Of a stretch of 64,000 nt of DNA, positions 12,131 through 55,118 are shown in pieces. The position numbers and the translations under genes are program-made. Location: positions 372,001 through 436,000 of the forward strand of contig DASYYH010000016.1 in NCBI GenBank assembly GCA_035934015.1. The letters are read 5' to 3'. This stretch comes from Candidatus Acidiferrales bacterium. Lineage in GTDB: Bacteria; Acidobacteriota; Terriglobia; Acidiferrales; UBA7541. Under the pieces are notes generated by a model. The model ran no database searches. It was not told the DNA's origin and saw only the letters and a program-made list of their open reading frames with translations. Position 1 is the first letter of the stretch. Every line of letters starts with the position of its first letter.

Positions 12131-12943
12131 TCACCCGAGCCCTTCCGAGGCCGAAGAAATCCCCGACGCGACGCGCCCCGAAGGGCGACGCGCGAAATTT
12201 CCATCGCCTTGCTTCAACAAACCATGCTCCAAGCTCAACACGCGGTCGGCGCGTTCCGCAAGGGATAAATTATGAGTCGCAAGAACTGAAGTCAGATGAT
12301 GAGACCGATGCAGGCGTTGCAGGAGACCGAAAATCGACTCCGTGTTCGCCTCGTCCAAATCGCCGGTCGGCTCATCCGCAAGCAACACCCGCGGGCGAGT
12401 TATCAGAGCTCTGGCAATCGCCGCGCGTTGTTGCTCACCGCCTGAAAGTTCGCTGGCGCGATGTCCAGCACGGTCGCCCAGTCCCACCTCAGAAAGCCAC
12501 TCTTGCGCAGTCTGCAGTGCAGCCCGTCCCGCCACACCCCGTATCAGGAGCGGCATCGCGACGTTTTCGGCCGCGGTGAAATCAGTCAAAAGCTGATGTC
12601 GCTGCCAGACAAACCCTACAGCAGAACTGCGGAAATTTTCCAGATCACGCTCCCCAAGCGTCTCCAGCAAATTTCCGTCGAAGTATACTGTACCGTTTGT
12701 CGGCGTGTCTAGAGCAGCCAACAGATGAAGCAGCGTGCTTTTGCCCGAACCGGACGGGCCGACGAGGGCGACCATTTCGCCGCTCGAAATGGAGAGGCTG
12801 ACTCCGTCGAGGGCCGTCACTTCCCCGCTGCCAGAGCGAAATACCTTTCGCAAGCCTTCCACGCGAAGCAGCGCCTTTTGCTCCCCGTGCCCGATTTCTA
12901 GTACGCCTTGCCTCGTCATCGTACTTGTCGCTTCGCTCGTCAT
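12131..12943 (-). CDS. ABC transporter ATP-binding protein, LolD/MacB type
   Basis: This 270-residue ATPase has Walker A GPSGSGKST, Q-loop FVWQRHQLL, signature LSGGEQQRAAIARAL, Walker B VLLADEPTGDLD and the switch His (LATHNLSL). The DEPTGDLD motif and overall form match the LolD/MacB/FtsE class, which works with permeases carrying an extracytoplasmic loop. The likely partner is the LolC/E-like permease at 13291-14517 on the same strand, making a lipoprotein-release or similar mechanotransmission transporter. It is separated from that gene by 347 bp, unusual for LolCD, and is followed after 3 bp by clpC. Two start candidates exist: the ATG used here and an internal ATG at TMTRQGVLEIG. Confidence 0.85.
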   Translation of the reverse strand: MTSEATSTMTRQGVLEIGHGEQKALLRVEGLRKVFRSGSGEVTALDGVSLSISSGEMVALVGPSGSGKSTLLHLLAALDTPTNGTVYFDGNLLETLGERDLENFRSSAVGFVWQRHQLLTDFTAAENVAMPLLIRGVAGRAALQTAQEWLSEVGLGDRAGHRASELSGGEQQRAAIARALITRPRVLLADEPTGDLDEANTESIFGLLQRLHRSHHLTSVLATHNLSLAERADRVLSLEHGLLKQGDGNFARRPSGRVASGISSASEGLG

Positions 12944-13290
12944 GACAGCAAGCTCTGCAATCTCCTGTTCAATTCCTGGGCCGAAACCTACTCCGTTTAT
13001 CGCTTTAGTTTCTATCTCTTATCGGCTGTCGATTCCTATCTCTCAGTCGTGGCTCCAAGTTCTTGCACATTTTGTGTGCAAAAGTTCCGTTATGCCTCTC
13101 GAACCACTCATGATGACCCAATTCGCTACACTTCCAATTGTAGCATGTTGCGTTTCTTCTCTGCTGTCCATGAGGTTCCGAATTCGCCACCGATGACGAG
13201 TACTTCCGTCATGGAACTCTAACGCCACCTGCACTCATTAAGATGCGCGTAAGCAGGTCGCGGGATAAGTGTCGAGTTAAATTTTCGTTG
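12944..13290 (-). promoter_or_regulatory. 347-bp gap between permease and ATPase genes, with an inverted repeat
   Basis: No convincing gene is seen here. The clearest structure is a perfect 7-5-7 inverted repeat, TTGCACA-TTTTG-TGTGCAA, at 13063-13081, about 120 bp upstream of the ATPase start. It has the size of a dimeric-repressor operator and could lie in the promoter region of the ATPase-clpC unit. Short open frames in the gap show no ribosome binding site or recognisable family. Confidence 0.35.
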
Positions 13291-42575: not shown

Positions 42576-42794
42576 TTAAAGGCGGCAATGTCCAAATGGG
42601 GTATGCGCCAACCGCCTTATATGACTCTTCCACGTGCCGATCGCGAAATCGAAATCGTGCTGCCCATCTTGCTCGGTGCTGATGGGCTGTGCGACTGTCG
42701 GCGAGGCGGCTTGTCGAAATGCCTGAAAGGAATGGAAGAGATAGCTAAGCGCGTACAATAGAAAATAAGTCCCGCAACGTCGAAGCGAGTTCAT
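42576..42794 (-). pseudogene. Truncated copy of the secreted GTWK domain gene
   Basis: The 72-codon frame starts ATG at 42794, overlapping the upstream stop (ATGA), and begins with a signal-like segment (CGTYFLLYALSYLFHSFQAF), then DGQHDFDFAIGTWKSHIRRLAH, clearly homologous to the neighbours. After about 10 more residues the homology stops abruptly and a TAA follows, so at least 120 residues of the domain are missing. The stop is one base before the start of the outer-membrane gene. This is most simply a deletion scar; a deliberately short protein is possible but less likely. Confidence 0.7.
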
Positions 42795-43939
42795 CGTTTT
42801 TCTCGTGTGAGCGTTGCGACAAAGTTCGGCTCCCAGGTCTTACCTCCGTCATCCGAAAAAGCCTCCTCGAAATGATATGAGGTCGGGGTGATGTCCGACC
42901 ACACGGTTCGCGCCAAGACCGCTCGGCCATTCACTGTTTCCTGATCGTAAAACTCTCCGCGACCGTCCTTGAACCCGCCGATTGTGGGCACGTTCACTGT
43001 GCCATCGGCGCTGTTGGCTACATTCAGGCTCCACTGATGGGATTGCGGATTATAGAGACGCAGGGAGAGAAATTCGATGTGCCCGGTTGGGCCATCGGCT
43101 TCGACTTCCGCCAGATTCGCGCGGCCGCCCCAGATCTTGTGAACCACGTCCGTGCCGTCGTATTTGATCCAAGTATGAGACCCCATCAAAGGATGCACGA
43201 GATGCTGGATGTGAACCTTCCATGTGCCAAAATCAAAATCGAAATCATGCTGTCCATCCCGCTCCGTACCGGATTCTTGGGCTTTGGCTTGCTGCGTACT
43301 TGAATCCGTTGGAGCCGCTGGCGACACCCATCCCCATGGCTCAGGTTCGCCCATCAGTTTTTCTTGGACGGTAAGGTTCGTTATCCAAGTATTACCTCCG
43401 TCCTCCGAATATGACTGTTCAAAATGATTCGAATTCGTAGTGATGTCTGAGACGCTGATTCGAAGAGGAGTGATTTTGTTATCATAATATGGCTCCTGGT
43501 CGACAAACGCAGCGTCCCCGTTCGTTTTCTTGAACTCGCCGAACATGGGGTTCAAGGTACCGCCAGCGCTGGTGGCCACGTTGAAACTCCATTGATGGGA
43601 TTGGGGACTGTAGAGACGCAGAGACAAAATTTCGAGATGCCCCGCTGGGCCATTGGACTCGATTTCTCCCATATTGGCGCGGCCGCCCCAAATTTTGCGA
43701 ATCACATCCGTACCGTTGTATTCAACCCAAGTATGGGAGTCATGCAGGAGGCGCGACTGATGGGTTTTCCAAGTACCAATACTGAAATCAAAATCGTGCT
43801 GCCCGTCGTGCTCCGCGGTGACTGAGGCTGGCTTTGCCGGCCGAGTCTTCTCGCTTGTCATTCCAATGGTTAATCCCGCGATCATCAACGCCGCAACAGC
43901 CACGCTTCGTCGCATCTTCACATTCTGGACATACTTCAT
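42791..43939 (-). CDS. Secreted protein with two copies of the GTWK domain
   Basis: This 382-residue exported protein has a signal anchor (VAVAALMIAGLTIGMTSE) and two homologous domains. Domain 1 runs from HDGQHDFDFSIGTWKTHQSRLL (about residue 46) and domain 2 from RDGQHDFDFDFGTWKVHIQHLVHPL (about 230). Both contain the WGGRANxxExxxGPxGHxExLSLRLYxPQSHQWSxNVAxS core and end with DDGG.TW or DGGNTW. No family is recognised. The ATG at 43939 overlaps the previous stop (ATGA) and its stop overlaps the next start, so it sits in a tightly coupled operon. The domains look like a duplicated beta-sandwich; ligand unknown. Confidence 0.78.
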   Translation of the reverse strand: MKYVQNVKMRRSVAVAALMIAGLTIGMTSEKTRPAKPASVTAEHDGQHDFDFSIGTWKTHQSRLLHDSHTWVEYNGTDVIRKIWGGRANMGEIESNGPAGHLEILSLRLYSPQSHQWSFNVATSAGGTLNPMFGEFKKTNGDAAFVDQEPYYDNKITPLRISVSDITTNSNHFEQSYSEDGGNTWITNLTVQEKLMGEPEPWGWVSPAAPTDSSTQQAKAQESGTERDGQHDFDFDFGTWKVHIQHLVHPLMGSHTWIKYDGTDVVHKIWGGRANLAEVEADGPTGHIEFLSLRLYNPQSHQWSLNVANSADGTVNVPTIGGFKDGRGEFYDQETVNGRAVLARTVWSDITPTSYHFEEAFSDDGGKTWEPNFVATLTREKR

Positions 43940-45005
43940 TGCTGGACTTTCGTTTGATCCGTAATCCAATTCGTTCCCCATGTCTTCCCGCCATCGTTTG
44001 AAAACGCCTGCTCAAAATGCATGGTCTTCGGCCACCAAATAAATCGAACGTAGACATACTTGCCGTTCACCGTATCCGTCCCATAAAACTCGCCTGTGTC
44101 GCCCTTGAATTCGCCAATCTGTGGAACGAAGATCTTGCCATTGTTACTGTTGGCCCAGTAGAGGCTCCATTGCTGCGTCTGCGGGTTGTAGGTACGCAAC
44201 GTCAAGCCCTCGATGCGTCCCGCCGCACCGCTGGCTTCGAATATCTCCAGTTGGCCGCGCCCACCCCAAATCCTTCGAGTCACGGAATCGGCGTAGAAAT
44301 CAGCCCATTGGTGCGAGCCCGTGAGTGGGTGGTCCAATTCCTTCAGGTGCAACTTCCACGTTCCAAGCTCGAAGTCGAATTGGTGTTCTGGCGCGCTAGC
44401 GTTCAACGGCGGCGCTGCGGAGTCCGCCGCGCCCGCGGAAGTGCGCGTCAACTCTGCGATAAAATTCGGCTGCCACGTCGCACCGCCGTCCCTCGTAGCG
44501 AAATTTCATATCGGTGCGAGTCCTTCTGGATGTCCGACCAGACACCTCGCACAAGAACAGTTCGCCCGCCGTCATCATCCTGCGCAAAGAACTCTCCTCG
44601 ACCATCCTTGAACTCGCCGACCATGGGAGCGTTCAGAATCCCGTCTTTGCTATTGGCATAGCTTTCGCTCCACTGATGTGCCTGAGGGTTATAGAGAAAC
44701 AAGGTAAGGCCTTCCCAGTGTCCCGTAGGGCCGTCCGCCTCGATCTGTTCCAACTCGCCGCGACCATTCCAAATCGGCTCCACTACCACTGTTCCGTTCT
44801 GCTCGATCCAGGTATCGGCGCCGCTCTCCGATCGCACGAGCCGTTTGATGCGCGTCCTCCACGTACCCACATTGAAGTCAAAGTCGTCCTGCCCATCATG
44901 CGCAGGCATGCTGGAGGCTCGTGTCGCGCAGAGAATCAATGACAAAGCAAGCGCGCCGAGGCTAACTACGCGCCAATACCAACCGTATTTGAATTCGACT
45001 TTCAT
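43936..45005 (-). pseudogene. Two-domain GTWK secreted-protein gene, frameshifted
   Basis: The gene begins at ATG 45005 (GAGGACGA upstream) with a signal (VVSLGALALSLILCATRASSM) and domain 1 (HDGQDDFDFNVGTWRTRIKRLVRS). At about 44490-44492 the reading frame breaks: the upstream frame runs HRYEISLR and then ends 14 codons later, whereas the -1 shifted frame continues as DGGATWQPNFIAELTR and into domain 2 (PEHQFDFELGTWKLHLKELDHPLTG) through to the stop at 43936. All other copies read S-D-DGG-x-TW here, so a single G is missing from a GGGG run. Either this is an inactivated gene or a sequence error. The downstream gene overlaps its stop by ATGA. Confidence 0.8.
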
Positions 45006-45092
45006 TCGTCCTCTTTCAAGAGTGTCGTGCAAACGGGCCCGAATGCTCCTGCGCTCTGCCGTCTTCTCTCGGACTTCATTCTCCAAATTCGC

Positions 45093-45153
45093 ATCATCAG
45101 TGATAAAGTGGGTTATGACAATGACCACTTTTGCCAATCTGGTATGACCACTT
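45093..45153. promoter_or_regulatory. Divergent promoter with 10-bp direct repeats, probable MocR operator
   Basis: Two exact copies of ATGACCACTT lie at 45121-45130 and 45144-45153, 23 bp apart start to start (about two helical turns), between the divergent operon and the MocR gene. For the leftward operon a -35-like TTGTCA (45116-45121, minus strand) is 17 bp from GATGAT (45093-45098). The first direct repeat begins at the last base of this -35. Direct repeats are the known binding mode of GabR/PdxR-like MocR regulators. Confidence 0.55.
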
Positions 45154-45163
45154 GCGTTTGTCC

Positions 45164-46669
45164 ATGAAACGACTTCCCGCCAGCTTTCTTCCGCCGATCT
45201 CGCTCGACCGCGGTAAGGAATATCCGATCTACCGCCAGTTGTACGATTGGTTCCAGCGGGCCATAGCCAATGGCCAACTCCGCCCCGGCCAACGCGTACC
45301 ATCCACCCGTGCACTTGCCGCAGAGCTGGGCGTTTCGCGAATTCCTGTTCTGAATGCGTTTGGACAGCTCCATGCGGAAGGCTACCTAGAGACATTCGCC
45401 GGCGCTGGAACTTGCGTTGCCAGTTCGATCCCTCAAGAAACAATTGGGCCGGCTCCGCGCAAGTCAGCGGGAAAGATAAGCCACTCGCCACAGAGAAAAG
45501 GAACGCGCAATATCTCCCAAGCCAACCGAGCAGTGAAATCAACCGCAGACCAGGCATGGTTGAAACTCTCCGGTGCCTTTCGAATGCACTTGCCTGCCCT
45601 CGACCACTTTCCAATGGAAATTTGGTCTCGTCTCGTAGCGCGAAACATTCGAAAAGGGAAAAAGAGTCTTATGGCCTACGGCGATGCGCTGGGCTACGCG
45701 CCGTTCCGCGAAGCTATCGCTGAGTATCTCGGCACAGTTCGCGCTGTGCGCTGCGATCCTTCGCAAGTGATGGTCACAACCGGATCCCAGCAGGGTCTGC
45801 AAATCTCTGCGAGCATCTTGTTGAATCCGGGAGATCCTGTGTGGATGGAAGAACCGGGATATCCAGGTGCTCATCAAGCGTTCGGAACCGTCGGCGCTCG
45901 CTTGATTCCTGTCTCCGTCGATGACGAAGGTCTGATTGTTGAAGAAGCCGTTCGCCGCTGCTCAAGAGCGCGGGCGGTTTACATCACTCCCTCGCATCAG
46001 TACCCGATGGGCATGACCATGAGCGCCGCACGCCGCATGCAGTTGCTCAATTGGGCGTCGCGGGTGGGCGCCTGGATCATTGAAGACGATTATGACAGCG
46101 AATATCGCTTCGGTATCCGCCCAATTGGCTCGCTCCAGGGTCTGGATTCGGATGCGCGAGTCATCTATGTGGGAACTTTCAGCAAAGTTATGTTTCCCGC
46201 ACTACGTTTGGGCTACGTGGTCGTTCCGCCGGATTTGGTGCACGCATTCTCGGTCCTTCGTGAAGCGACGGACATTTTTTCTTCCACTCTTTATCAAGCC
46301 GTGATGACCGATTTCATCAAAGAGAGCCACTTTGCCCGTCACGTTCGCAGGATGCGCAATCTTTACGCGGAGCGATGCAGCATGCTTGGGCAGTCACTCC
46401 GCACACAAATGGGAGCAATGATGGAAGTCATTAGCGCAGACGCGGGAATGCATCTGGTGGGCTTACTTCCTCCTAATTTTCACGACGTGGCGGTTTCGCA
46501 AAGGGCGGCCAAGAGCGGCATCTCCGCGATGCCTCTATCGAATTGCTATCTCAAGCGTCCATCGCCTCCCGGTCTTGTTCTCGGCTACGGCTCGACGCAC
46601 GTCGCGCAGATTCCAGATACAGTTCAAACTCTTTCCAGAATTATTCGTACGTTTGAGGGTGCATCCTGA
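45164..46669 (+). CDS. MocR/PdxR-type transcriptional regulator (GntR HTH fused to aminotransferase)
   Basis: The protein has an N-terminal GntR winged helix-turn-helix (ISLDRGKEYPIYRQLYDWFQ, ...PSTRALAAELGVSRIPVLNAFGQLHAEGYLETFAGAGT) and a C-terminal fold-type I aminotransferase-like domain of about 370 residues, with the PLP-lysine motif YVGTFSKVMFPALRLGYVV and AWIIEDDYDSEYRF (the PLP-pyridine Asp). Start: ATG 45164 (MKRLPASFLPP), 501 residues. MocR proteins typically regulate an adjacent divergent gene in response to an amino compound or PLP; the divergent operon of GTWK-domain genes is the obvious target. Confidence 0.92.
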   Translation: MKRLPASFLPPISLDRGKEYPIYRQLYDWFQRAIANGQLRPGQRVPSTRALAAELGVSRIPVLNAFGQLHAEGYLETFAGAGTCVASSIPQETIGPAPRKSAGKISHSPQRKGTRNISQANRAVKSTADQAWLKLSGAFRMHLPALDHFPMEIWSRLVARNIRKGKKSLMAYGDALGYAPFREAIAEYLGTVRAVRCDPSQVMVTTGSQQGLQISASILLNPGDPVWMEEPGYPGAHQAFGTVGARLIPVSVDDEGLIVEEAVRRCSRARAVYITPSHQYPMGMTMSAARRMQLLNWASRVGAWIIEDDYDSEYRFGIRPIGSLQGLDSDARVIYVGTFSKVMFPALRLGYVVVPPDLVHAFSVLREATDIFSSTLYQAVMTDFIKESHFARHVRRMRNLYAERCSMLGQSLRTQMGAMMEVISADAGMHLVGLLPPNFHDVAVSQRAAKSGISAMPLSNCYLKRPSPPGLVLGYGSTHVAQIPDTVQTLSRIIRTFEGAS

Positions 46670-46741: not shown

Positions 46742-47077
46742 TCAGTTGCGAGTCAGTGCTGCGGCTTCATCCTCGACAATATCCAAGACTGAATCGAGCC
46801 GCACCATTTTAAGGAGTTGAGAGACGCGTTTCGTTGGCGCGAAGAAGGTGCAGTTCCCGCCACACTTCTTCATCTGGCTGTACACGCGAACGAGCGAGCC
46901 GATACCGGAGCTATCCATCTCGGGCACAGAGGCGAGGTTAATAGCCATGCGGCGGACTCCGCCGTCGATCAACTCCTGCACTTGCTGGCGGAACGCTTGC
47001 TCGCTCTCGCCGAGCTTGAGCGCACCGGCGAGATCAACAATGGTAATCGGCCCTGCTTTACGAATCGAGACGGTCAA
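46742..47077 (-). CDS. STAS-domain anti-sigma factor antagonist
   Basis: This protein has a single STAS domain: ITIVDLAGALKLGESEQAFRQQVQELIDGGVRRMAINLASVPEMDSSGIGSLVRVYSQMKKCGG, read across the domain, with the phosphorylatable Ser in MDSSGIG. STAS antagonists bind HPK/serine-kinase anti-sigma factors (SpoIIAA/RsbV type). No anti-sigma kinase is in the window. I use a TTG at 47077 (TVSIRKAGPITIVDL) because GGGGG lies 6 bp upstream; an ATG at 47125 gives a longer leader. It diverges from the GAF-HlyD gene (195 bp apart) and may share a regulatory region with it. Confidence 0.82.
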   Translation of the reverse strand: MTVSIRKAGPITIVDLAGALKLGESEQAFRQQVQELIDGGVRRMAINLASVPEMDSSGIGSLVRVYSQMKKCGGNCTFFAPTKRVSQLLKMVRLDSVLDIVEDEAAALTRN

Positions 47078-47271
47078 GCAGCCCCCACGCGGTAGAAAGG
47101 TACCCGAACTTGTCCTTCCAAGCAAGAGACGGATGGACTGACAGGCTTAATGGCAACTCTCCTTGACTCCCAACATGGCTTTTGCTAGGTTTCTACCGAT
47201 TCTAAGCTCGATTTTCCTCCAATCTGCAATGCTGAGAATAAAGCACGTCCGCATCTCTCCGGGAGAGTGCC

Positions 47272-49731
47272 GTGGAACCTTCTTCCCACTTGCTTGACCT
47301 CGCGACTATTTTCTATGCCTGCCGTGACACAGAAACACTGCTGAAAACCCTTGCGGGGCGTTTAGGGACTTCCCTTGATGCGCGGGCCGTCATAGTGTGG
47401 ATCGCCGCCTGGGACAACGAGGGCGATGATGAATCGGAAACCGAAACAATTTCCGCAAAACTCCAAGCAGCTTGGTTCGCTTCTGGGGAGCGTTTCGAGC
47501 CGGTTGCCAATATGGTTTCGGAAGGCGTACTCGTGCAGGTGCTCGAAAGTGGTGAACCGCTGGAATTCTCTTCGAAATCTGAAGACGAAGACATCTTGGC
47601 GCACTTGGCCGAATCGTCGCGCGAGCGCGTGGAGGCGGAGCTTTACTGTCCATTGCCGGGACCACAGCGTTCAGCCGGAGTCGTCGAGATTCTCAATCCG
47701 CGACGCGGCAGATTCACGCCCGACGAACTGCAGTATGTGCGAGAAGTGAGCCGCCTCGCAGGGCTCGCACTGGAAAATTGCCAGGACCGCGAACGACAAG
47801 TCCATGAGCATCTTACAACGGTCGAGCGTCTGACGGCGTTGTACGACATCAGCCGCATCTTTAATTCCACGCTTGAAATGGAAGAGTTGTTGCCCGTCAT
47901 CACCGAGAAAATTCGTGACCTGTTGAATGCCTCCGCCTGCAACCTCTGGCTCGTAGATGCGGAGACGAACAGTCTTCACGCCATGCAGCAAGCCGGTGAG
48001 GACCCAACTCTGGGCGAAGGAGCACAGTGCGCGATCGGGGAAGGGGTGGTCGGCAAAGCGGCACAATTAGGTCAGCCAGTACTTGTGGAAGCTGCTTCTG
48101 AAGATGAAATGCTGGCAGAGCGGCGCAAGAATGAGACGGAAGACTTCCACTTGGAGTCGGTCATATGCTCGCCACTTCTCAAGGGCGAAGAAGTGATGGG
48201 CGCTATCGAAGTGGTCAACCGCATCGGCGGCGGTGCATTCTCGGAAGAAGATCTCTATTTTCTTTCCAACATTAGTGAGCAGGCTGCGATCGCGATAAGT
48301 AACGCCAAGCTGCTCGACGCTGAGCGTAAAGTGAGCGTTCTCGACGCGCTGCTGGGCATCAGCCGTGAGATTACCTCCACGCTGGATCTCGATCATGTGC
48401 TGCGCACGGTCGTGCAGCAGGCCTCCACGATCATCCCATTTGATCGCGGTGTGATCGGCCTTTTCGATCGCGATCGTTTCCTGCTGGGTGCGGTTTCCGG
48501 GGAAACCGAAGTACCGAAGACACTAGAAATGGACCAATTTAAGGGAGTCTTAGAATGGGCCGCGCGACAGGAAAGCGCTGTTTCCGTCGACCGCGATGAT
48601 GATGGCTGGCGATTGGATCCGCCGGAAGCCAAAGAATCAGTAGCTGCGTTCTTGGAGAATCATGGATATGCGGGTTTTTATGCGCTGCCATTGCGAGACG
48701 ATCAGGGAGCGATTGGAGCAATCGGACTGCTTAGCCAGCAGGCTGATTTTCTCGATGATGACGAACGGGAGACGCTGGCGATTCTCGGCAATCAGACGGC
48801 TGTAGCTATTCGAAACGCCCAGCTCTACCAACAAGTGCCGCTTGCCGGCTTCCTGAAACCATGGGCCGAACGCAAAGAAAAACTCTTTGCCGCGATGCCC
48901 AAAGCTCGCTGGATCGCATGGGCTTGGCGTGGTGCGATTGCTGCTGCGCTGCTTTTCATCATTCCGATGCCCATGCGCATAGGCGCAAATGCAACCGTGG
49001 TGCCGGCGGCCAGGCGCGTCGTCGCTGCCGAAGCTGGCGGGATCGTGGACCGCGTGATGGTCCATGAAGGCAGTAAGGTCAAGGCCGGAGAGTTGCTCGC
49101 GGCGCTCGATTCGAGCGCCGACCAGCTAAAGCTGGTGCAGGCGCAAACCGCACTCGCGAACGCCCAGCGCGCACTGGCGGATGCCGAATTTCGCGGAGAT
49201 CCTTCTGCGGCTGGGCAAGCACACATCGAAGTGCAGCTGCATCAGGCGGAAGTCCAGTTCGAACGCACGCGCGTGAGCGAAGCCATGCTCCTCGCGCCCA
49301 TATCCGGCATAGTGGTCACGCCCAAGGTAGAGCAGAAGGTGGGTGCGATGCTGAAGCCGGGAGATGCTTTCTGCGAACTGGTGGATCCAAGTGAGATGGC
49401 CGTCGAAATGAGCGTTCGCGAAACGGACATGCCGTTGCTGCGTGACGGGATCCCTGTGCAAATCAAGTTGAATGCGCTGCCGCTGGAAACACTTCGCGGT
49501 ACCGTGGATCGTCTCGGTGCCGTAACACGTTCGGAAAATGGTGAGCAATTTTTCGTAGTTCGAGCCGACTTCGCCAATTCTGGGTTGGCCGCGCGCGACG
49601 GCATGGTAGGCAGCGCAAAGATCCTTGCCGCAGGTGGATGGTTTTCCTCTGGATGGTTTCCATTGGGATATGTGATTTTTCGTGCGCCCTTCCGCTGGGC
49701 TTGGGAGTCAGTCTGGTCATGGCTACCGTGA
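47272..49731 (+). CDS. Fusion of three GAF domains with a HlyD-type membrane-fusion protein
   Basis: This 819-residue protein begins at a GTG (GGGAGAG upstream). Residues about 1-175, 190-350 and 360-530 each look like GAF domains (e.g. TEKIRDLLNASACNLWLVD; VICSPLLKGEEVMGAIEVVN; RGVIGLFDRDRFLLGAV). A single transmembrane helix follows (about 553-572, WRGAIAAALLFIIPMPMRIG), then a barrel-sandwich hybrid/HlyD domain (VVAAEAGGIVDRVMVHEGSKVKAGELLAAL) to the end. So cytoplasmic GAF domains are linked to a periplasmic adaptor; ligand binding could gate export. It is 19 bp from the next HlyD gene, in a three-gene operon. Confidence 0.85.
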   Translation: MEPSSHLLDLATIFYACRDTETLLKTLAGRLGTSLDARAVIVWIAAWDNEGDDESETETISAKLQAAWFASGERFEPVANMVSEGVLVQVLESGEPLEFSSKSEDEDILAHLAESSRERVEAELYCPLPGPQRSAGVVEILNPRRGRFTPDELQYVREVSRLAGLALENCQDRERQVHEHLTTVERLTALYDISRIFNSTLEMEELLPVITEKIRDLLNASACNLWLVDAETNSLHAMQQAGEDPTLGEGAQCAIGEGVVGKAAQLGQPVLVEAASEDEMLAERRKNETEDFHLESVICSPLLKGEEVMGAIEVVNRIGGGAFSEEDLYFLSNISEQAAIAISNAKLLDAERKVSVLDALLGISREITSTLDLDHVLRTVVQQASTIIPFDRGVIGLFDRDRFLLGAVSGETEVPKTLEMDQFKGVLEWAARQESAVSVDRDDDGWRLDPPEAKESVAAFLENHGYAGFYALPLRDDQGAIGAIGLLSQQADFLDDDERETLAILGNQTAVAIRNAQLYQQVPLAGFLKPWAERKEKLFAAMPKARWIAWAWRGAIAAALLFIIPMPMRIGANATVVPAARRVVAAEAGGIVDRVMVHEGSKVKAGELLAALDSSADQLKLVQAQTALANAQRALADAEFRGDPSAAGQAHIEVQLHQAEVQFERTRVSEAMLLAPISGIVVTPKVEQKVGAMLKPGDAFCELVDPSEMAVEMSVRETDMPLLRDGIPVQIKLNALPLETLRGTVDRLGAVTRSENGEQFFVVRADFANSGLAARDGMVGSAKILAAGGWFSSGWFPLGYVIFRAPFRWAWESVWSWLP

Positions 49732-49750: not shown

Positions 49751-50662
49751 ATGAGGCGTGCTATTTTCATTTGTGGCATGGTGCTCGCGCTTGGCGGCAC
49801 GGTAGGCTGCTCGAATCCAATTGCCGCATCGAGTCCCCCGGCGAATTCAGAAACGGCGGCAACCACTCCTCGCGCTCCGGCAGCGGAGACGCCCAAGCCG
49901 CTCAGCCTGCTAAGCATTCTTTCCGTCGAAAAGGCGGTTGACGTAACAGCGCAACGCGGTGGTGTGGTCCTCGCGACGGAAAAGGACGAGGGCAGCGTCG
50001 TTCGCACCGGAGACGAGATGGGACGGCTCGATGACAGCACCCTGCAGGCCGAGTTGCAAAAAGCCGAGTCCGATTTGCTAGTCTCACAGAATAATGTGAA
50101 ATACAAAGAGGCTGAAGAGCAGGCGAAAAATGCGCAATTACAGCGCCAGCAACTCTTGCGAGCCAGCGGTCTGAGCAGCGAAGCAGACCTTGAAGAGGCC
50201 GAGTTTGAAGCGAAGGGTGCGGCCTATGATCTCGACAGCTGGCGGCAGGCGGTCAAGAGTAATCAGGCGCAAATTCACGAGCTCCAAATCGAAATTGCCA
50301 AGACGCATATCAGCGCGCCCTTTTCAGGAGTTGTCGTCCACCGTTATATTCGTCAGGGCGAACAGGTAAACAAGAACGACAAATGTTTCCGCGTTAGCCA
50401 GTTAGCGCCCCTCCAAGTGGAATTTCAGGTGCCGGAAACCGGCGGTGTCCTTCCGCAGCCTGGTTTGGCTTTTTCTCTTCGATTGTCTGCTGGCTCCGAA
50501 CAACTCTATACCGCAAGAGTGCTCCGCGTAAGTCCCACGATCGATCCGGCGAGCGACAGCTATGACGTTGTGGGTCGCTTGACTGGCGGCAATCTGGACG
50601 GGCTGCGGCCGGGAATGTCCGTCGAGGTTTTGTGGCCTGTTAGCTCTAGGCTGGGCCGGTAG
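49751..50662 (+). CDS. HlyD-family periplasmic adaptor lipoprotein
   Basis: This 303-residue protein has a lipoprotein-type signal (MRRAIFICGMVLALGGTVGCS; Cys at residue 20), a Pro/Ala linker, then a barrel-sandwich hybrid domain (VDVTAQRGGVVLATEKDEGSVVRTGDEMGRLD), an alpha-helical hairpin (LQAELQKAESDLLVSQNNVKYKEAEEQAKNAQLQRQQ), and the closing strand (TAPFSGVVV-like ISAPFSGVVVHRYIRQGEQVNKND). The start ATG is preceded by GGAGGAG. It sits between two other HlyD-domain genes, so the unit would have three adaptors; no RND or ABC permease or TolC-like gene is in the window. Confidence 0.88.
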   Translation: MRRAIFICGMVLALGGTVGCSNPIAASSPPANSETAATTPRAPAAETPKPLSLLSILSVEKAVDVTAQRGGVVLATEKDEGSVVRTGDEMGRLDDSTLQAELQKAESDLLVSQNNVKYKEAEEQAKNAQLQRQQLLRASGLSSEADLEEAEFEAKGAAYDLDSWRQAVKSNQAQIHELQIEIAKTHISAPFSGVVVHRYIRQGEQVNKNDKCFRVSQLAPLQVEFQVPETGGVLPQPGLAFSLRLSAGSEQLYTARVLRVSPTIDPASDSYDVVGRLTGGNLDGLRPGMSVEVLWPVSSRLGR

Positions 50663-50668
50663 CCGGCC

Positions 50669-52813
50669 ATGCGCTTTGGCCCATCGGGACTGCGAGCCTC
50701 GCGAGTGCTGGCCAAAGGGCTGCACCGTCCGAAAGTTCGCTCCGATATCCGCGTAAGCCGACAAAATGTCGCCGGTGAAATCAGTTATGTGATCAAAATC
50801 AGCGAAACGGCAAGCTATAACCGCTACGGCAGCTATGAATTTGAGTTGTTGCAAGCCTTTGATGGCACGCGTACAGCAGCCGAAGCTGCCGAATACATGA
50901 ATGAACGCTACCCTGACACACCTATTGACGAAGCCACGATCTTGGATTTTTTGGAAGGCATCCCGCCCGATATGTGGGAGCGAACCGTCGGCGAGAAGAA
51001 TCTCGCTATCTTGGAGCGCCTTCGCGACGAACGCAAGAGTCGCCTCGATCAGTCCAACCTCCTTTACATAACCTTTAAGGCTTGGGATCCCGACAAGGTT
51101 CTCTCGCGCCTCGACCCGGTTCTCAGCTGGATGTACACGCGGGGTTTCATATACTTCTCGGTGGGATTGTTTTTGCTCATGCTCTGGCTTCTGTCAGGAG
51201 ACTGGAGTCGTATTGCGCATGATACCAAGGAACTCTGGAACTTCTCCGATAAGTCCGCTTATTACCTGTGGGTTTTTTGGTTGCTCATGCTGGTTATCGG
51301 GGGCATTCACGAATTCGGGCATGGGCTCACGTGCAAACATTATGGCGGCGAAGTCCATCAGATGGGATTCATGCTGATTTACCTTACGCCTGCATTTTTC
51401 ACCGACACGACCGACGTATTGATGATGGACCGCGTGGCCCCGCGCCAGTGGACTATCTTCGCGGGAATTTGGGTGGAGTTGTTGCTGTGCAGCATTTCCG
51501 CTGTAATCTGGCACTTCACACTTCCCGGCTCCACGGTCAATGGCCTGGCTTACATGATGATGCTGCTCTGTGGAATTCAGGGCACTCTGTTGAATCTCAA
51601 TCCTCTGATCAAAGCGGACGGCTACTACGCTCTCTGCCAGTACCTGCAAATCGACAATCTGCGCGAGGACTCCTTTGAATTCCTGCAAGCCTGGCTTCTC
51701 CAAAACGCTCTCCGCCGTCAGGTGGAACTCCCGGCCGCAAGCCGGCGGCAAAGAAAAATCTTCCTGACCTACTCTCTCACGGCGCTCGTTTACAGCATCA
51801 CGCTGATTACCGTGGTGCTCTTGTGGTTGAAGAATGTATGCATCAACAAGTTTGGTGCCTGGGGTTACGTCATTTTCGCCGCGGCAATTTATTTCTTTGC
51901 CCATCGGAAAATCCGGAAGCTGGCGACAAAGCTCCCCTCTTGGTGGGTAAAGGCAAAGGAGGGTTATATGGCCTGGAAACTGACGCGAAGGCAAACCGTT
52001 GGTATGGCAGTGGCCGTCGTACTGCTGACCGTGCCACCTATTCCGTCGAGGATTTCCGTGCCCTGTATCCTTGAGCCCAGCGGTCAAGCTGAGGCGCGCG
52101 CCGCAGTCTCAGGCGTTGTCCAGCAAGTGCTCGTGCGGCAAGGAGAACAAGTGCAGCAAGGGCAGGTGCTCGCGGTCTTGGAAAATCCTTTGCTGGCCTC
52201 AGCCGTGGCTGTAGACACGCAACAACTCGCCCTCGAACAGAGCCGGCTCCGCTCGGCAGAAGGGGCCGCCAATGCAGACGCGGCAGCGACGGCCAGTCGC
52301 GAAGTAACTCGGCTTGAAAAATACATGGAGATTGCCCAGCGAGAATACGCACAGCTCCAAGTCCGCGCACCGATCGCCGCGACCGTCACCACGCCCGAGC
52401 TTGCTGAAACGGTAGGAGAATATCTACCCGAAGGGGAGACTTTCTGTCATCTTTCTTCTCGCACGGAAATGCGTGTGCGCATCCTGGTGCACGATTGGGC
52501 GGCTGACGATGTGCGGCCCGGCGCGCGTTTGTTGCTGAAGGTCTCTTCTTACCCATTGAGAACTTATTCTGGCCGGGTGGATCGAATCATGCCGGCCATG
52601 GCTTCCGACCGCCCCGTCGGAGATCCTACAGCGCTCACCCGCTATGGTCAGGAGCTGGCCAACTATATGGCCGTGATCGCTGATTTACCGAATCCGGATG
52701 GCTCGCTCCGCGAAGGAATGACCGGAACAGTTAAAATCTACAGCCCTGCGCGCTCGATTGTCTGGCAGGTGGGCCGTGGCACATGGCGGTGGCTTAGGTC
52801 CCAGTTTTGGTGA
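50669..52813 (+). CDS. PqqD-like / M50 zinc metalloprotease / HlyD fusion (putative peptide export and processing protein)
   Basis: This 714-residue polytopic protein starts with a PqqD-like domain (about residues 35-100, YEFELLQAFDGTRTAAEAAEYMNERYP). A transmembrane bundle follows, with M50 motifs HEFGH at about 214-218 and NPLIKADGYY at about 311-320 (the third zinc ligand Asp), the arrangement of site-2-protease-like 'peptide zinc metalloproteases'. After more helices a HlyD adaptor domain is fused at about 470-690 (SGVVQQVLVRQGEQVQQGQVLAVLENP). M50-HlyD proteins occur next to peptide or bacteriocin biosynthesis genes such as B. subtilis yydH. The gene starts 6 bp after the adaptor lipoprotein and converges on the 44-residue peptide gene. 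Confidence 0.86.
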   Translation: MRFGPSGLRASRVLAKGLHRPKVRSDIRVSRQNVAGEISYVIKISETASYNRYGSYEFELLQAFDGTRTAAEAAEYMNERYPDTPIDEATILDFLEGIPPDMWERTVGEKNLAILERLRDERKSRLDQSNLLYITFKAWDPDKVLSRLDPVLSWMYTRGFIYFSVGLFLLMLWLLSGDWSRIAHDTKELWNFSDKSAYYLWVFWLLMLVIGGIHEFGHGLTCKHYGGEVHQMGFMLIYLTPAFFTDTTDVLMMDRVAPRQWTIFAGIWVELLLCSISAVIWHFTLPGSTVNGLAYMMMLLCGIQGTLLNLNPLIKADGYYALCQYLQIDNLREDSFEFLQAWLLQNALRRQVELPAASRRQRKIFLTYSLTALVYSITLITVVLLWLKNVCINKFGAWGYVIFAAAIYFFAHRKIRKLATKLPSWWVKAKEGYMAWKLTRRQTVGMAVAVVLLTVPPIPSRISVPCILEPSGQAEARAAVSGVVQQVLVRQGEQVQQGQVLAVLENPLLASAVAVDTQQLALEQSRLRSAEGAANADAAATASREVTRLEKYMEIAQREYAQLQVRAPIAATVTTPELAETVGEYLPEGETFCHLSSRTEMRVRILVHDWAADDVRPGARLLLKVSSYPLRTYSGRVDRIMPAMASDRPVGDPTALTRYGQELANYMAVIADLPNPDGSLREGMTGTVKIYSPARSIVWQVGRGTWRWLRSQFW

Positions 52814-52998: not shown

Positions 52999-53133
52999 TT
53001 AGAAGGTGCTGGGACCCCGTCGCAACGTGTTCATCTGCTTGAGCGTCTTGAACGATTTCAGAGACTTGAGTGGCTTGAGCGTCTTCACTTTTCCCAGAGC
53101 CTTACCCTTGTTCGCCGTCTTCTTGGTAGCCAT
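52999..53133 (-). CDS. 44-residue lysine-rich triplet-repeat peptide, candidate exported peptide or precursor
   Basis: The product begins MATKKTANKGKALGKV and contains consecutive triplets TLK, PLK, SLK, SFK, TLK, with less perfect QMN and TLR, then ends GPSTF. It has 11 Lys and 2 Arg and no Asp or Glu. The start ATG is preceded by GGGGAGGAAGTTAACA, a very strong ribosome binding site. At DNA level the region has a 9-bp period (CTTGAGCGT-like units). No cleavage signal or known RiPP leader is recognised. It converges on the PqqD-M50-HlyD operon and is next to a sigma-54 activator gene. Alternative: a small basic nucleoid or regulatory protein. No homology is assigned. Confidence 0.7.
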   Translation of the reverse strand: MATKKTANKGKALGKVKTLKPLKSLKSFKTLKQMNTLRRGPSTF

Positions 53134-53188: not shown

Positions 53189-53204
53189 TGCAATCCGATG
53201 CCCA
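53189..53204 (-). promoter_or_regulatory. Sigma-54-type (-24/-12) promoter for the 44-residue peptide gene
   Basis: On the minus strand the sequence TGGGCATCGGATTGCA has GG and GC separated by exactly 10 bp, with a perfect TTGCA at -12; the -24 region is TGGGCA where consensus is TGGCAC. It lies 56 bp upstream of the peptide ATG at 53133, a distance compatible with sigma-54 promoters. The neighbouring gene encodes a sigma-54 activator. Confidence 0.55.
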
Positions 53205-53259: not shown

Positions 53260-53353
53260 GGTCCAGTACTGCCGTCGCGTTCTCGCTGGAAGTGTGGAAT
53301 TGTTGAAATTATCAACATCGGTTGAGTTTTTCATCAACCTCATGCGCTGCCTC

Positions 53354-54742
53354 TCACAAATTGAACTTGCGACGCAGGTAATTCATTCGATTTCGATCCA
53401 CGCCCAGAAGTTTGGCGGCAGCGGCCATGTCCCGAGATGCCTGACGCACCGCTGTTTCCACCAGCTCTCGCTCATACGCCTGTAACTCCTTATCTAGCTC
53501 GATTCCGGAAGCCGGGAAGTGCGTTCGTCCTCGCCCGTTTACTGCAAGCGCGGCGCTAACCTCGCCGGGGAGGTCTCCTAATCCGATGGTCTCGGTTTCG
53601 CACATGAGCACAACGCGCTGGATGACATTTTCGAGCTCTCGCACGTTGCCAGGCCAGGGGTATTTCTTAAGTGCAGCCAGGGCCTCTTCGGAGACCCGCT
53701 TGGGGGAAAACTGGTTCGCTGCGCAGTAGACCTGCACAAAATAATCAGCAAGCAGGGAAATGTCTTCAACGCGCTCGCGTAGGGGAGGCAGGAATATAGG
53801 TACGACGTGGATGCGGTAATAAAGGTCCTGGCGAAATCGCTCCTGATGCACCATCTCTTCCAAGTTCTCATTGGTAGCGGTGATCAGCCGGAAATCGACC
53901 TTGATGGGCTTCTTTCCGCCAAGCCGCAACACTGCATGGTCCTCAAGTACGCGCAGCAGCTTGGTTTGCAGCGATGGAGAGAGAGTGGCAATTTCGTCGA
54001 GAAAAAGGGAACCCTTGTCAGCCATCTCAATACGGCCTTCTTTTGTGGCCACGGCTCCAGTGAACGCCCCCCTCTCATAGCCGAACAGCTCAGCCTCCAT
54101 CAGCGTTTCTGGCAGCGCCGCGCAGTTTACGGAAATAAACGACCGTGAACGGCGTGGACTATTTTCATGGATCGATCGCGCAGCGAGTTCTTTGCCGGTC
54201 CCACTTTCGCCGCGAATAATCACTGTCGAAGAGGATCGGGCCACGCGGCGAATCGTCTCGAAGACGTGCCGCATGGCATCGGTGGTGCCGAGCAGGTCCC
54301 CCAAACCGTGCTTTCTGCGAATTTCGTCCCGCAGGATGCGGTTCTCTCGTTGGATGCGGAGTTTTTCGATTCCCCGCGCTACTAGGACACGAAGCACGTC
54401 CGTGTCCAGCGGTTTGAGAAAATAGTCATAAGCCCCGGCGTCGATCACCTTCAGTGCCGTGGATTTCTTTTCTTCCGAACTTAGAACGATGACTAACGTA
54501 TCGACCTCGCTGCCATCGAGGCGCGACAGTAGCTCCAGGCACTCACTCGAGCTGCCTGAGGGAATCGGCAGTCCCAAAAGGAGAACATCCAATTCGGCCT
54601 CCTGGAGCAACCGATATGCGTCTTTGTAGTTTTCCCCGTCGTAGATGTCGAAATCGCCGCTTAGTGAAGCGTGGATACGCGAACGCAGGCCGTCATCATC
54701 ATCGACGACCGCAATGCGTGGCCTCGTTCCCTTAGAGCTCAT
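53354..54742 (-). CDS. Sigma-54-dependent response regulator (NtrC family) with a degenerate receiver domain
   Basis: The 462-residue product has a receiver domain, an AAA+ domain with Walker A GESGTGKE, the GAFTGA loop (ERGAFTGAVATKEG) that contacts sigma-54, and a C-terminal HTH of the Fis type (AAAAKLLGVDRNRMNYLRRKF). The receiver keeps the acidic pocket (VVDDDDGLR, Asp14-Asp17), the Ser (VLSS) and Lys (FLKPLD) positions, but the expected phospho-acceptor Asp at about residue 57 reads Gly in DVLLLGLPIPS. It resembles the PEP-CTERM-type PrsR family by its DAGAYDYFLKPLDTDVL segment. The likely target is the peptide promoter at 53189-53204. No histidine kinase is nearby. Confidence 0.9.
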   Translation of the reverse strand: MSSKGTRPRIAVVDDDDGLRSRIHASLSGDFDIYDGENYKDAYRLLQEAELDVLLLGLPIPSGSSSECLELLSRLDGSEVDTLVIVLSSEEKKSTALKVIDAGAYDYFLKPLDTDVLRVLVARGIEKLRIQRENRILRDEIRRKHGLGDLLGTTDAMRHVFETIRRVARSSSTVIIRGESGTGKELAARSIHENSPRRSRSFISVNCAALPETLMEAELFGYERGAFTGAVATKEGRIEMADKGSLFLDEIATLSPSLQTKLLRVLEDHAVLRLGGKKPIKVDFRLITATNENLEEMVHQERFRQDLYYRIHVVPIFLPPLRERVEDISLLADYFVQVYCAANQFSPKRVSEEALAALKKYPWPGNVRELENVIQRVVLMCETETIGLGDLPGEVSAALAVNGRGRTHFPASGIELDKELQAYERELVETAVRQASRDMAAAAKLLGVDRNRMNYLRRKFNL

Positions 54743-55118
54743 TTTATTCAGGTGTGTCTTGATTACTCTTCGCGGCCTGCAGGGCCCGTATGGTTTCGAG
54801 ATTCTAGAGTGTGACTTCGCCAGTGTCAATGTCGACGGATCCCGAAGTCACGATGCGCAGGGACCGACCTTTTGCTCTGCTGCTGTCGTTGGGACTCCGA
54901 TTGGACTGCTTAGGATAGGCTCGATACGGGCCCGCCGCAGTTCACGGCATTCTATGATTAGTTTCTAGGAATTGAATGGCTCCAATGTGATGCAAGATAC
55001 ATTTTATAGTGACGGGCATCACATTCGAAATCTAAGTGACTTCGTAATATCGCATTGGTTGTCGAGATTCTGGTTAGTCATCGCTTCCCATTAATGCAAT
55101 TAAATTTGGAGGAACCCA
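54743..55118. promoter_or_regulatory. Regulatory gap upstream of the cupredoxin genes
   Basis: This gap of about 380 bp contains no convincing gene. The clearest element is a perfect 10-bp inverted repeat, AATGTGATGC at 54984-54993 and GCATCACATT at 55016-55025, with a 22-bp spacer that includes a TATAGT-like box at 55005-55010. The half-sites TGTGAT/ATCACA resemble CRP/FNR half-sites, but the spacer is too long for the standard palindrome. A second TGGCAC occurs near 55136, without a matching -12 element. Confidence 0.4.

Follow-up and report, generated by a model that had tools for sequence, protein, structure and literature searches.

A GAF-HlyD fusion protein as possible sensory adaptor of a protease-centred peptide export module without secondary SecA, and candidate substrates of this module

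The window, a stretch of 64,000 nucleotides (nt) from a Candidatus Acidiferrales bacterium (contig DASYYH010000016.1), encodes on its plus strand a protein of 819 amino acids (aa), here named GAF3-HlyD, in which three GAF domains are followed by one transmembrane helix and an HlyD-type adaptor domain. GAF3-HlyD heads a conserved cassette of GAF3-HlyD, a lipoprotein HlyD and a PqqD-like/M50/HlyD protein (M50-HlyD), which is located beside a gene for a sigma-54 activator. The chance is about one half that GAF3-HlyD acts as the sensory adaptor in a SecA-less module that processes and exports peptides and has a protease at its centre. The fused GAF-HlyD protein and the module are already known. 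A module of GAF-HlyD, M50-HlyD and HlyD proteins with a secondary SecA was published in 2015 (Kamneva, Poudel and Ward, PMC4452313), and no substrate was known in that publication. Concrete candidates now come from peptide genes, from the sigma-54 promoters of these genes and, in other phyla, from an N-terminal tag, LExRIAP. These three and the PqqD-like domain are new here, and the interest lies less in the GAF-HlyD fusion than in the candidate substrates found through it. The parts of GAF3-HlyD are as follows.

47272..49731, plus strand: GAF-GAF-GAF-transmembrane-HlyD protein, 819 aa, GTG start at 47272, open frame to the stop at 49731
47326..47772, plus strand: GAF domain 1, E 2.0e-11 in the host-genome search, the least conserved, mean 25% identity to relatives
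47878..48297, plus strand: GAF domain 2, E 3.0e-18 in the host-genome search, matches single-GAF structures of the PtsP and PDE type
48385..48810, plus strand: GAF domain 3, E 2.5e-12 in the host-genome search
48904..48960, plus strand: single transmembrane helix, residues 545-563 (AlphaFold2 model, hydropathy)
48964..49626, plus strand: HlyD/MacA-like periplasmic adaptor, residues 565-785, with a short alpha-hairpin (Pfam, AlphaFold2, Foldseek, VIA-align)
49663..49722, plus strand: conserved Trp-rich C-terminal helix, residues 798-817 (alignment, AlphaFold2)

A preliminary description of the gene, made from the sequence alone, had claimed that three GAF sensors are joined to an export adaptor in one polypeptide by a single transmembrane helix, and the domain and structure searches bear this out. 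Pfam matches GAF (E 9e-43, in three separate stretches), HlyD_D23 (E 2.4e-18) and HlyD_3 (E 3.4e-13) were all above the curated cut-offs, and the three GAF matches of the host-genome search, each above the cut-off, are in one frame. The AlphaFold2 model, with 39 aligned proteins as input, had a mean predicted local distance difference test value (pLDDT) of 87.9 and a predicted template modelling score (pTM) of 0.48; the individual domains are predicted with confidence, their placement relative to each other is not. GAF folds appear at residues about 20-170, 203-350 and 372-517, all within residues 1-530, with long linker helices at 150-197 and 325-369, followed by the helix at 545-563 and the HlyD unit with its short hairpin. 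In Foldseek and VIA-align comparisons, the N-terminal half resembles the GAF structures of PDE2A, PtsP, DosS and Lcd1, with VIA Z values of about 20 for single-GAF chains (top match 3ci6_A, Z 20.8, root mean square deviation (rmsd) 2.8, 157 residues); MacA and MexA are the matches of the C-terminal half (MacA 9qgy_G, Z 18.9, rmsd 4.5, 245 residues). By curated Pfam score and by fold, GAF3-HlyD contains GAF domains and an HlyD membrane fusion protein.

A transmembrane-like hydropathy was found in GAF3-HlyD for residues 548-572 and for no other stretch. Lys plus Arg are more frequent in the 20 residues preceding the transmembrane helix than in the 20 that follow it in 32 of 39 relatives (average 4.5 versus 2.4). 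This excess on the GAF side favours a location of the GAF domains in the cytoplasm, which is most likely the correct one, as had been assumed in the preliminary description; a topology with GAF domains outside did not emerge. Apart from the GAF chain, the cassette contains no recognisable cytoplasmic sensor. The mean identity of the relatives to the window protein is 41% for GAF2 and 42% for GAF3, and the linker helices between the GAF domains are conserved. NKFDE is the motif of cyclic-nucleotide-binding GAF domains. Its strict form occurs in none of the 39 aligned relatives, in any of the three GAF domains, and a reading as cyclic-nucleotide sensors is therefore unsupported; a relaxed form is present in GAF2 of 20 of the 39 relatives and in GAF1 of 2. 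That ligand binding at the GAF domains gates export, as the preliminary description had suggested, is plausible, with no ligand that could be named. The architecture, described as unusual, is indeed uncommon for a GAF protein, but it is not unique and was known before, occurring in several phyla and in the module of 2015 (PMC4452313, main text).

The comparison of gene neighbourhoods revealed as the partner of GAF3-HlyD an intramembrane protease with an HlyD domain of its own, not a classic pump, and candidate peptide substrates adjoin, a context that the preliminary description had missed.

49751..50662, plus strand: second HlyD adaptor, 303 aa, with an N-terminal Cys in a lipobox-like signal (Pfam HlyD_D23 2.5e-17)
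50669..52813, plus strand: PqqD-like, M50 intramembrane protease and HlyD protein, 714 aa (Pfam, NCBIfam, AlphaFold2, structure matches)
50750..50959, plus strand: N-terminal PqqD-like domain of M50-HlyD, residues 28-97, which may bind the tag (AlphaFold2 secondary structure)
51308..51322, plus strand: HExxH zinc motif, residues 214-218, with H214, E215 and H218 invariant in 54 of 54 family members
51593..51625, plus strand: NxNPLxKxDGY motif, residues 309-319, with N311, P312, L313, D317, G318 and Y319 invariant in 54 of 54
53354..54829, minus strand: sigma-54 activator, on the opposite strand downstream of M50-HlyD (Pfam, NCBIfam)

M50-HlyD possesses the intact HExxH and NPDG-type motifs of M50/S2P intramembrane proteases in a transmembrane core. 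All 54 family members were matched by Pfam M50 at E up to 0.1, the window protein staying under the gathering score. The NCBIfam model for the daptide protease also matched all 54, that for the YydH/LiaK epipeptide protease 53 and Pfam PqqD 17 of them. The structure match list of the whole-protein model was filled by its HlyD part; the M50 core of the AlphaFold2 model aligns with RseP (VIA Z 10.9, rmsd 4.0, 163 residues) and with SpoIVFB (VIA Z 10.4, rmsd 4.0, 136 residues). In the family of the second HlyD adaptor, 16 of 26 members as called contain the lipobox-like pattern, and several others have misplaced starts.

The gap between M50-HlyD and the activator contains the first candidate substrate.

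52999..53133, minus strand: gene for a Lys-rich peptide of 44 aa, candidate substrate or precursor, an open reading frame (ORF) between M50-HlyD and the activator on the activator strand

Among close relatives, the window included, 23 of 24 gaps contain one to four such peptide ORFs. In a second set of loci, which shares genomes with the first, 35 of 37 gaps contain them, and in locus L093 two such ORFs adjoin a displaced activator. Two main classes of N termini were seen, MAKKxxKKGKKLxxxKxL-like in Acidiferrales and MxIQKKSLISxLxTTKKA in Terriglobales. Behind this conserved N terminus, the tails are hypervariable and often consist of perfect short tandem repeats such as LSGGKG, GGALSK, LQRGT or LGK. 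An isoelectric point (pI) above 10 was calculated for 44 of 46 peptides. On the activator strand, 36 ORFs in 26 kb of gap sequence passed a fixed rule (ATG or GTG start, Shine-Dalgarno-like site, 20 to 200 aa, at least 10% Lys and not fewer Lys than Arg, pI above 10), compared to 2 on the other strand and 6 in 553 kb elsewhere. This strict rule was passed by 26 of 35 loci; the nine failing ones contain mostly Arg-rich or less basic repeats. The third codon position was the most variable one in all six compared peptide pairs.

A class-wide search was done with the Terriglobales-type leader, the leader of the window peptide being short and of low complexity. Of the 299 genomes of the class, 19 contain the leader at E up to 0.01, and each of the 19 belongs to the 66 genomes with M50-HlyD; this count is not a probability because the genomes are related. 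Eighteen of the 20 leader matches are within about 420 nt of M50-HlyD. The other two are in genome G275 (contig C8, 239352-239936) on a contig without a listed M50-HlyD, with two M50-HlyD places elsewhere in this genome. A scan for Lys-rich short ORFs near M50-HlyD beyond the first loci yielded only L137, with unconvincing matches.

The promoters of the peptide genes were evaluated for 46 genes in 36 loci, with starts taken from a manual reading of the gap ORFs; unrelated ORFs, for instance a 151-aa SET protein and short frames without leader, had been excluded beforehand. A −24/−12 sigma-54 score of at least 17.5 was found at 40 to 80 nt before the start of 35 of the 46 genes, compared to 1.0% of dinucleotide-shuffled sequences and 0.9% of randomly chosen places. 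The site of the window peptide is weaker than those of most relatives. It is suggestive only, and a hint at a promoter, because its score of 16.5 was reached by 2.8 to 3.5% of the controls.

53189..53204, minus strand: sigma-54-like −24/−12 site (GG-N10-GC), score 16.5, some 55 nt before the start of the peptide
53302..53338, minus strand: two inverted GTTGA-N-TCAAC sites, candidate activator-binding sites (sequence pattern)

Paired GTTGA/TCAAC inverted sites occur upstream of the peptides in a part of the Acidiferrales loci, including the window, and not in Terriglobales loci, with L120 as one weak exception. They are therefore not a general feature. The receiver domain of the window activator reads LLLGLPIPSG, with Gly at the position of the usually phosphorylated Asp, and this Asp is also replaced in several relatives and kept in others, making a control of the activator by phosphorylation doubtful. 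A joint sigma-54 control of cassette and peptides was rejected, with sites in 2 of 38 regions upstream of the cassette compared to 8.7% of random places; peptide and cassette are not obviously co-regulated.

In other phyla, short or giant proteins with a different N-terminal tag are encoded next to the module. The pattern LE.RIAP gave 17 six-frame matches in 11 of the 79 listed loci, all 17 of them 9 to 62 residues from the first possible ORF start and in the M50 neighbourhood, a count which is descriptive because the motif was first noticed in some of these loci. The tag is located on short peptides, mostly with repeats, in L109, L113, L131, L132 and L143, and on proteins of 771 to 2079 residues in L091, L102, L103, L105 and L122; that of L126 is cut by the contig end. 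An LExRIAP profile matched 15 of 26 module-bearing genomes (E up to 0.01). Of the 30 listed profile matches, the 13 outside the first loci were inspected, all 13 near the ORF start and seven in one planctomycete. Nine of these tagged proteins were scanned, and several had matches to VCBS, tandem-95, SBBP, choice-of-anchor or pectate-lyase-like domains, some had none; such domains occur in extracellular proteins. Within the class of the window, the profile matched 14 of 299 genomes, 10 of them with M50-HlyD. At E up to 1e-3, all 7 matched genomes have M50-HlyD, and the four that lack it are weak matches. In G198 (three tags) and G096 (its only tag), the tags are on contigs without a listed M50 match. 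In place and form, LExRIAP is presumably similar to the LEPR-XLL motif of giant proteins. The NCBIfam model LEPR-XLL gave no match on 17 LExRIAP-tagged proteins (E up to 0.1). LEPR-XLL is named as an N-terminal domain of large proteins in two papers. No statement on these substrates or on the LExRIAP tag was found in the literature searched, mostly without subscription papers and preprints and with the supplements of PMC4452313 outside.

The module recurs in several phyla. Among 101 genomes including that of the window, 26 contain one stop-free frame that aligns from GAF through HlyD, so the architecture is not an accident of assembly; one more, in G037, is cut by the contig end, and G006 aligns across the GAF domains only. 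M50-HlyD is present in 66 of 299 genomes of the class (E up to 1e-30). A profile scan of named genomes for M50-HlyD resulted in at least 79 loci, and locus-wide counts cover the 79 listed. According to custom hidden Markov models, 52 of these have GAF and HlyD in one frame. Ten N-terminally extended HlyD proteins, some within the 52, were checked with Pfam (E up to 0.01); GAF was found in nine, which adds L118, L133 and L140 to the GAF-HlyD loci, and no GAF was found in that of L135. Several of the remaining loci without a GAF-HlyD frame are cut by contig ends, and L109, L113, L122, L131 and L132, for example, have no GAF-HlyD in the available stretch. The listed loci belong to Acidobacteriota, Planctomycetota, Verrucomicrobiota, Bdellovibrionota/Oligoflexia and Magnetococcales, with fewer recognisable GAF domains in Planctomycetota and Verrucomicrobiota. 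Candidate substrates also occur in named isolates of Granulicella and Edaphobacter (loci L080, L081), which makes the function of the module testable.

The locus of the window encodes together the same three proteins as the module of 2015, GAF plus HlyD, a weak Peptidase_M50 plus HlyD, and HlyD/biotin_lipoyl (PMC4452313, main text). There, OEP was sometimes nearby, an ABC (ATP-binding cassette) transporter was missing, and a regulatory or sensory function was proposed for the GAF protein. That module was defined by a secondary SecA_DEAD gene, whereas the window version has none: a secondary SecA was sought as energy source, and the host genome contains a single SecA_DEAD match. This indicates that the locus is a SecA-less relative of the published module, not that module itself. 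One SecA_DEAD match each was also found in the seven Acidobacteriota G312 and G328-G333, and a second, shorter one, with a frame of 628 to 827 aa, in G313, G322, G325 and G326, which are planctomycete or Magnetococcales genomes. The word Acidobacter does not occur in the main text of PMC4452313, whose sections on the module name no substrate, tag, PqqD-like domain or sigma-54-controlled peptide; all of these are proposed here.

The best NCBIfam matches of the window M50 part are the daptide and epipeptide (YydH/LiaK) proteases, with daptide_HExxH at E 1.8e-54 and LiaK at E 1.1e-11, and the locus shares with these systems the HExxH motif and a small peptide nearby. The scores of 185.3 of 300 and 44.8 of 225 bits, however, are far under the curated cut-offs, and the protein is not assigned as an equivalog of a daptide or epipeptide biosynthesis protease. 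In addition, the window protease differs by its fused HlyD domain, and neither an ABC exporter nor a known tailoring enzyme is encoded in the window. A pathway for a ribosomally synthesized and post-translationally modified peptide comprises a precursor with leader, a recognition domain and a modifying enzyme; the leader-like peptides and the PqqD-like domain are candidates for the first two, the window cassette has no modifying enzyme, and a SET gene is found in three relatives. The HlyD unit superposes on MacA, but MacA/MexA membrane fusion proteins do not have the three N-terminal cytoplasmic GAF domains of GAF3-HlyD, which has no cognate pump beside its gene.

PqqD-like domains bind leaders, and M50 proteases of the daptide/epipeptide type trim peptides at the membrane. 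On this basis, the sigma-54 activator would turn on the one or several genes for short peptides, most of them very basic, and the PqqD-like N-terminal domain of M50-HlyD would bind the conserved N terminus of the peptide. At the membrane, the M50 intramembrane zinc protease may subsequently cut the peptide or its tag. The HlyD domains of GAF-HlyD, lipoprotein HlyD and M50-HlyD would form a periplasmic conduit to an outer-membrane channel of the TolC family encoded elsewhere, and the three HlyD-bearing chains could share one ring leading to it. The three cytoplasmic GAF domains would read a small-molecule or redox state, and their ligand state would alter the HlyD ring, with the linker and transmembrane helices setting the state or assembly of the conduit. 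Of this scheme, the folds of the domains, the intact protease motifs, the conserved cassette, the peptide genes with their sigma-54 promoters and the tag in other phyla are computational results, and binding, cleavage, export, sensing and the energy source are inferred. If true, this would be an export route that has a protease at its centre and contains its own cytoplasmic sensor, and it would bring with it a family of hypervariable repeat peptides. A wider claim, to be held more tentatively, is a distinct Gram-negative secretion route, in which a short N-terminal tag that is no signal peptide leads to a PqqD-like/M50/HlyD machine that includes an adaptor with GAF sensing and may or may not have a SecA ATPase of its own. 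The tags would be the Lys-rich leaders in Acidobacteriota and LExRIAP elsewhere, and the substrates would range from peptides of 25 residues to extracellular proteins of 2000 residues.

Several results weigh against GAF3-HlyD as the sensory adaptor of an export module. Among the 39 relatives, conservation of GAF1 is low, and none of the GAF domains has a conspicuous ligand motif. Pfam PqqD was not detected in the window M50-HlyD protein itself, the peptides lack a hydrophobic stretch on which an intramembrane protease could act, and L048 of the close-relative set and L076 of the second set have no recognisable peptide ORF. The Terriglobales-type leader has no match in the host genome, nor has the LExRIAP tag, which is absent from the window peptide. 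The cassette is without a sigma-54 promoter and the locus without a visible energy source, be it ABC, a resistance-nodulation-division (RND) pump or a secondary SecA.

Part of this could also mean that the GAF domains no longer sense and serve as an oligomerisation scaffold, which keeps six or more adaptors in register in a constitutive module. Such a scaffold, although rather improbable, agrees with the lack of the strict NKFDE motif, with the missing sigma-54 control of the cassette, and with the variation in GAF number and conservation, from the 25% identity of GAF1 to the fewer domains in Planctomycetota and Verrucomicrobiota and none found in L135. A bare scaffold, however, would not need several distinct GAF domains retained across phyla, and GAF2 and GAF3 are better conserved than GAF1, with the conserved linker helices retained. 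Still less probable is that the basic peptides are cytoplasmic regulators or nucleic-acid-binding peptides of the regulon of the sigma-54 activator, and that the module exports something else. The peptides are indeed very basic and on the activator strand, and in L093 they accompany the activator 7 kb from the M50 gene, but hypervariable tandem-repeat tails behind a conserved leader look substrate-like, the leader-bearing genomes are a subset of those with M50-HlyD, and other phyla have LExRIAP-tagged proteins, some with extracellular-type domains, in the same place or the same genomes.

An ordinary efflux adaptor, with GAF-HlyD serving an unlinked ABC or RND pump and unrelated neighbours, would account for the MacA/MexA-like HlyD unit and for a match to the NCBIfam RND adaptor model, which is under its cut-off. 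This is very unlikely, considering that the cassette with M50-HlyD is kept in Acidobacteriota, Planctomycetota, Verrucomicrobiota, Bdellovibrionota and Magnetococcales while the flanking genes vary in the Acidobacteriota loci. When the neighbours were clustered in 30 Acidobacteriota loci, widely shared were the cassette, the activator (26 loci) and a STAS gene (10 loci), and no ABC, RND or tailoring enzyme was common to them. The efflux-pump reading was dropped because no conserved pump gene adjoins the cassette. Nor was an ABC transporter among the neighbours scanned with Pfam, and the combination of ABC and membrane fusion protein that characterises classical type I secretion was not found. 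For the export module with GAF3-HlyD as sensory adaptor, a TolC-family partner is not encoded in the window cassette; eight TolC-family proteins are encoded in the host genome, and L091 and L103 have such genes next to the module. In similar places, L102 and L123 have unscanned ORFs of comparable size.

Other small genes share the region of the peptides. A SET-domain protein of 151 aa (Pfam SET E 1.3e-19), with the fold of protein lysine methyltransferases, is encoded among the Lys-rich peptide genes of three relatives and could modify the peptides.

L066:12256-12711, L045:13409-13861 and L069:7539-7991, minus strand: SET-domain protein (Pfam SET)
L074:12326-12466, L062:4412-4552, L047:13060-13197 and L075:12615-12704, minus strand: ORF with DTCGxC motif

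The latter, about 47 aa long, is another small conserved ORF; it is located in four genomes between M50-HlyD and the genes of the Lys-rich peptides, and its copy in L075 had no Pfam match. In L082 (5739-6269, minus strand) and L090 (9929-10504, minus strand), a longer peptide of 176 to 191 aa with a 14-residue repeat containing RKAPL occupies the peptide place, and its leader contains VEALEGRESPIS, resembling the LExRIAP tag.

In L093, an Acidobacteriota locus, a LuxR-type response regulator (12206-12952, minus strand) is directly downstream of M50-HlyD with a kinase-like frame adjacent, and the sigma-54 activator and the peptides are about 7 kb away from M50-HlyD. In the window itself, two further features are located upstream of GAF3-HlyD.

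46742..47125, minus strand: STAS-domain protein, divergent upstream neighbour, conserved in part of the loci (Pfam)
42791-45614, minus strand: three adjacent frames that repeat a DFDFxxGTWK-like unit, apparently tandem paralogues

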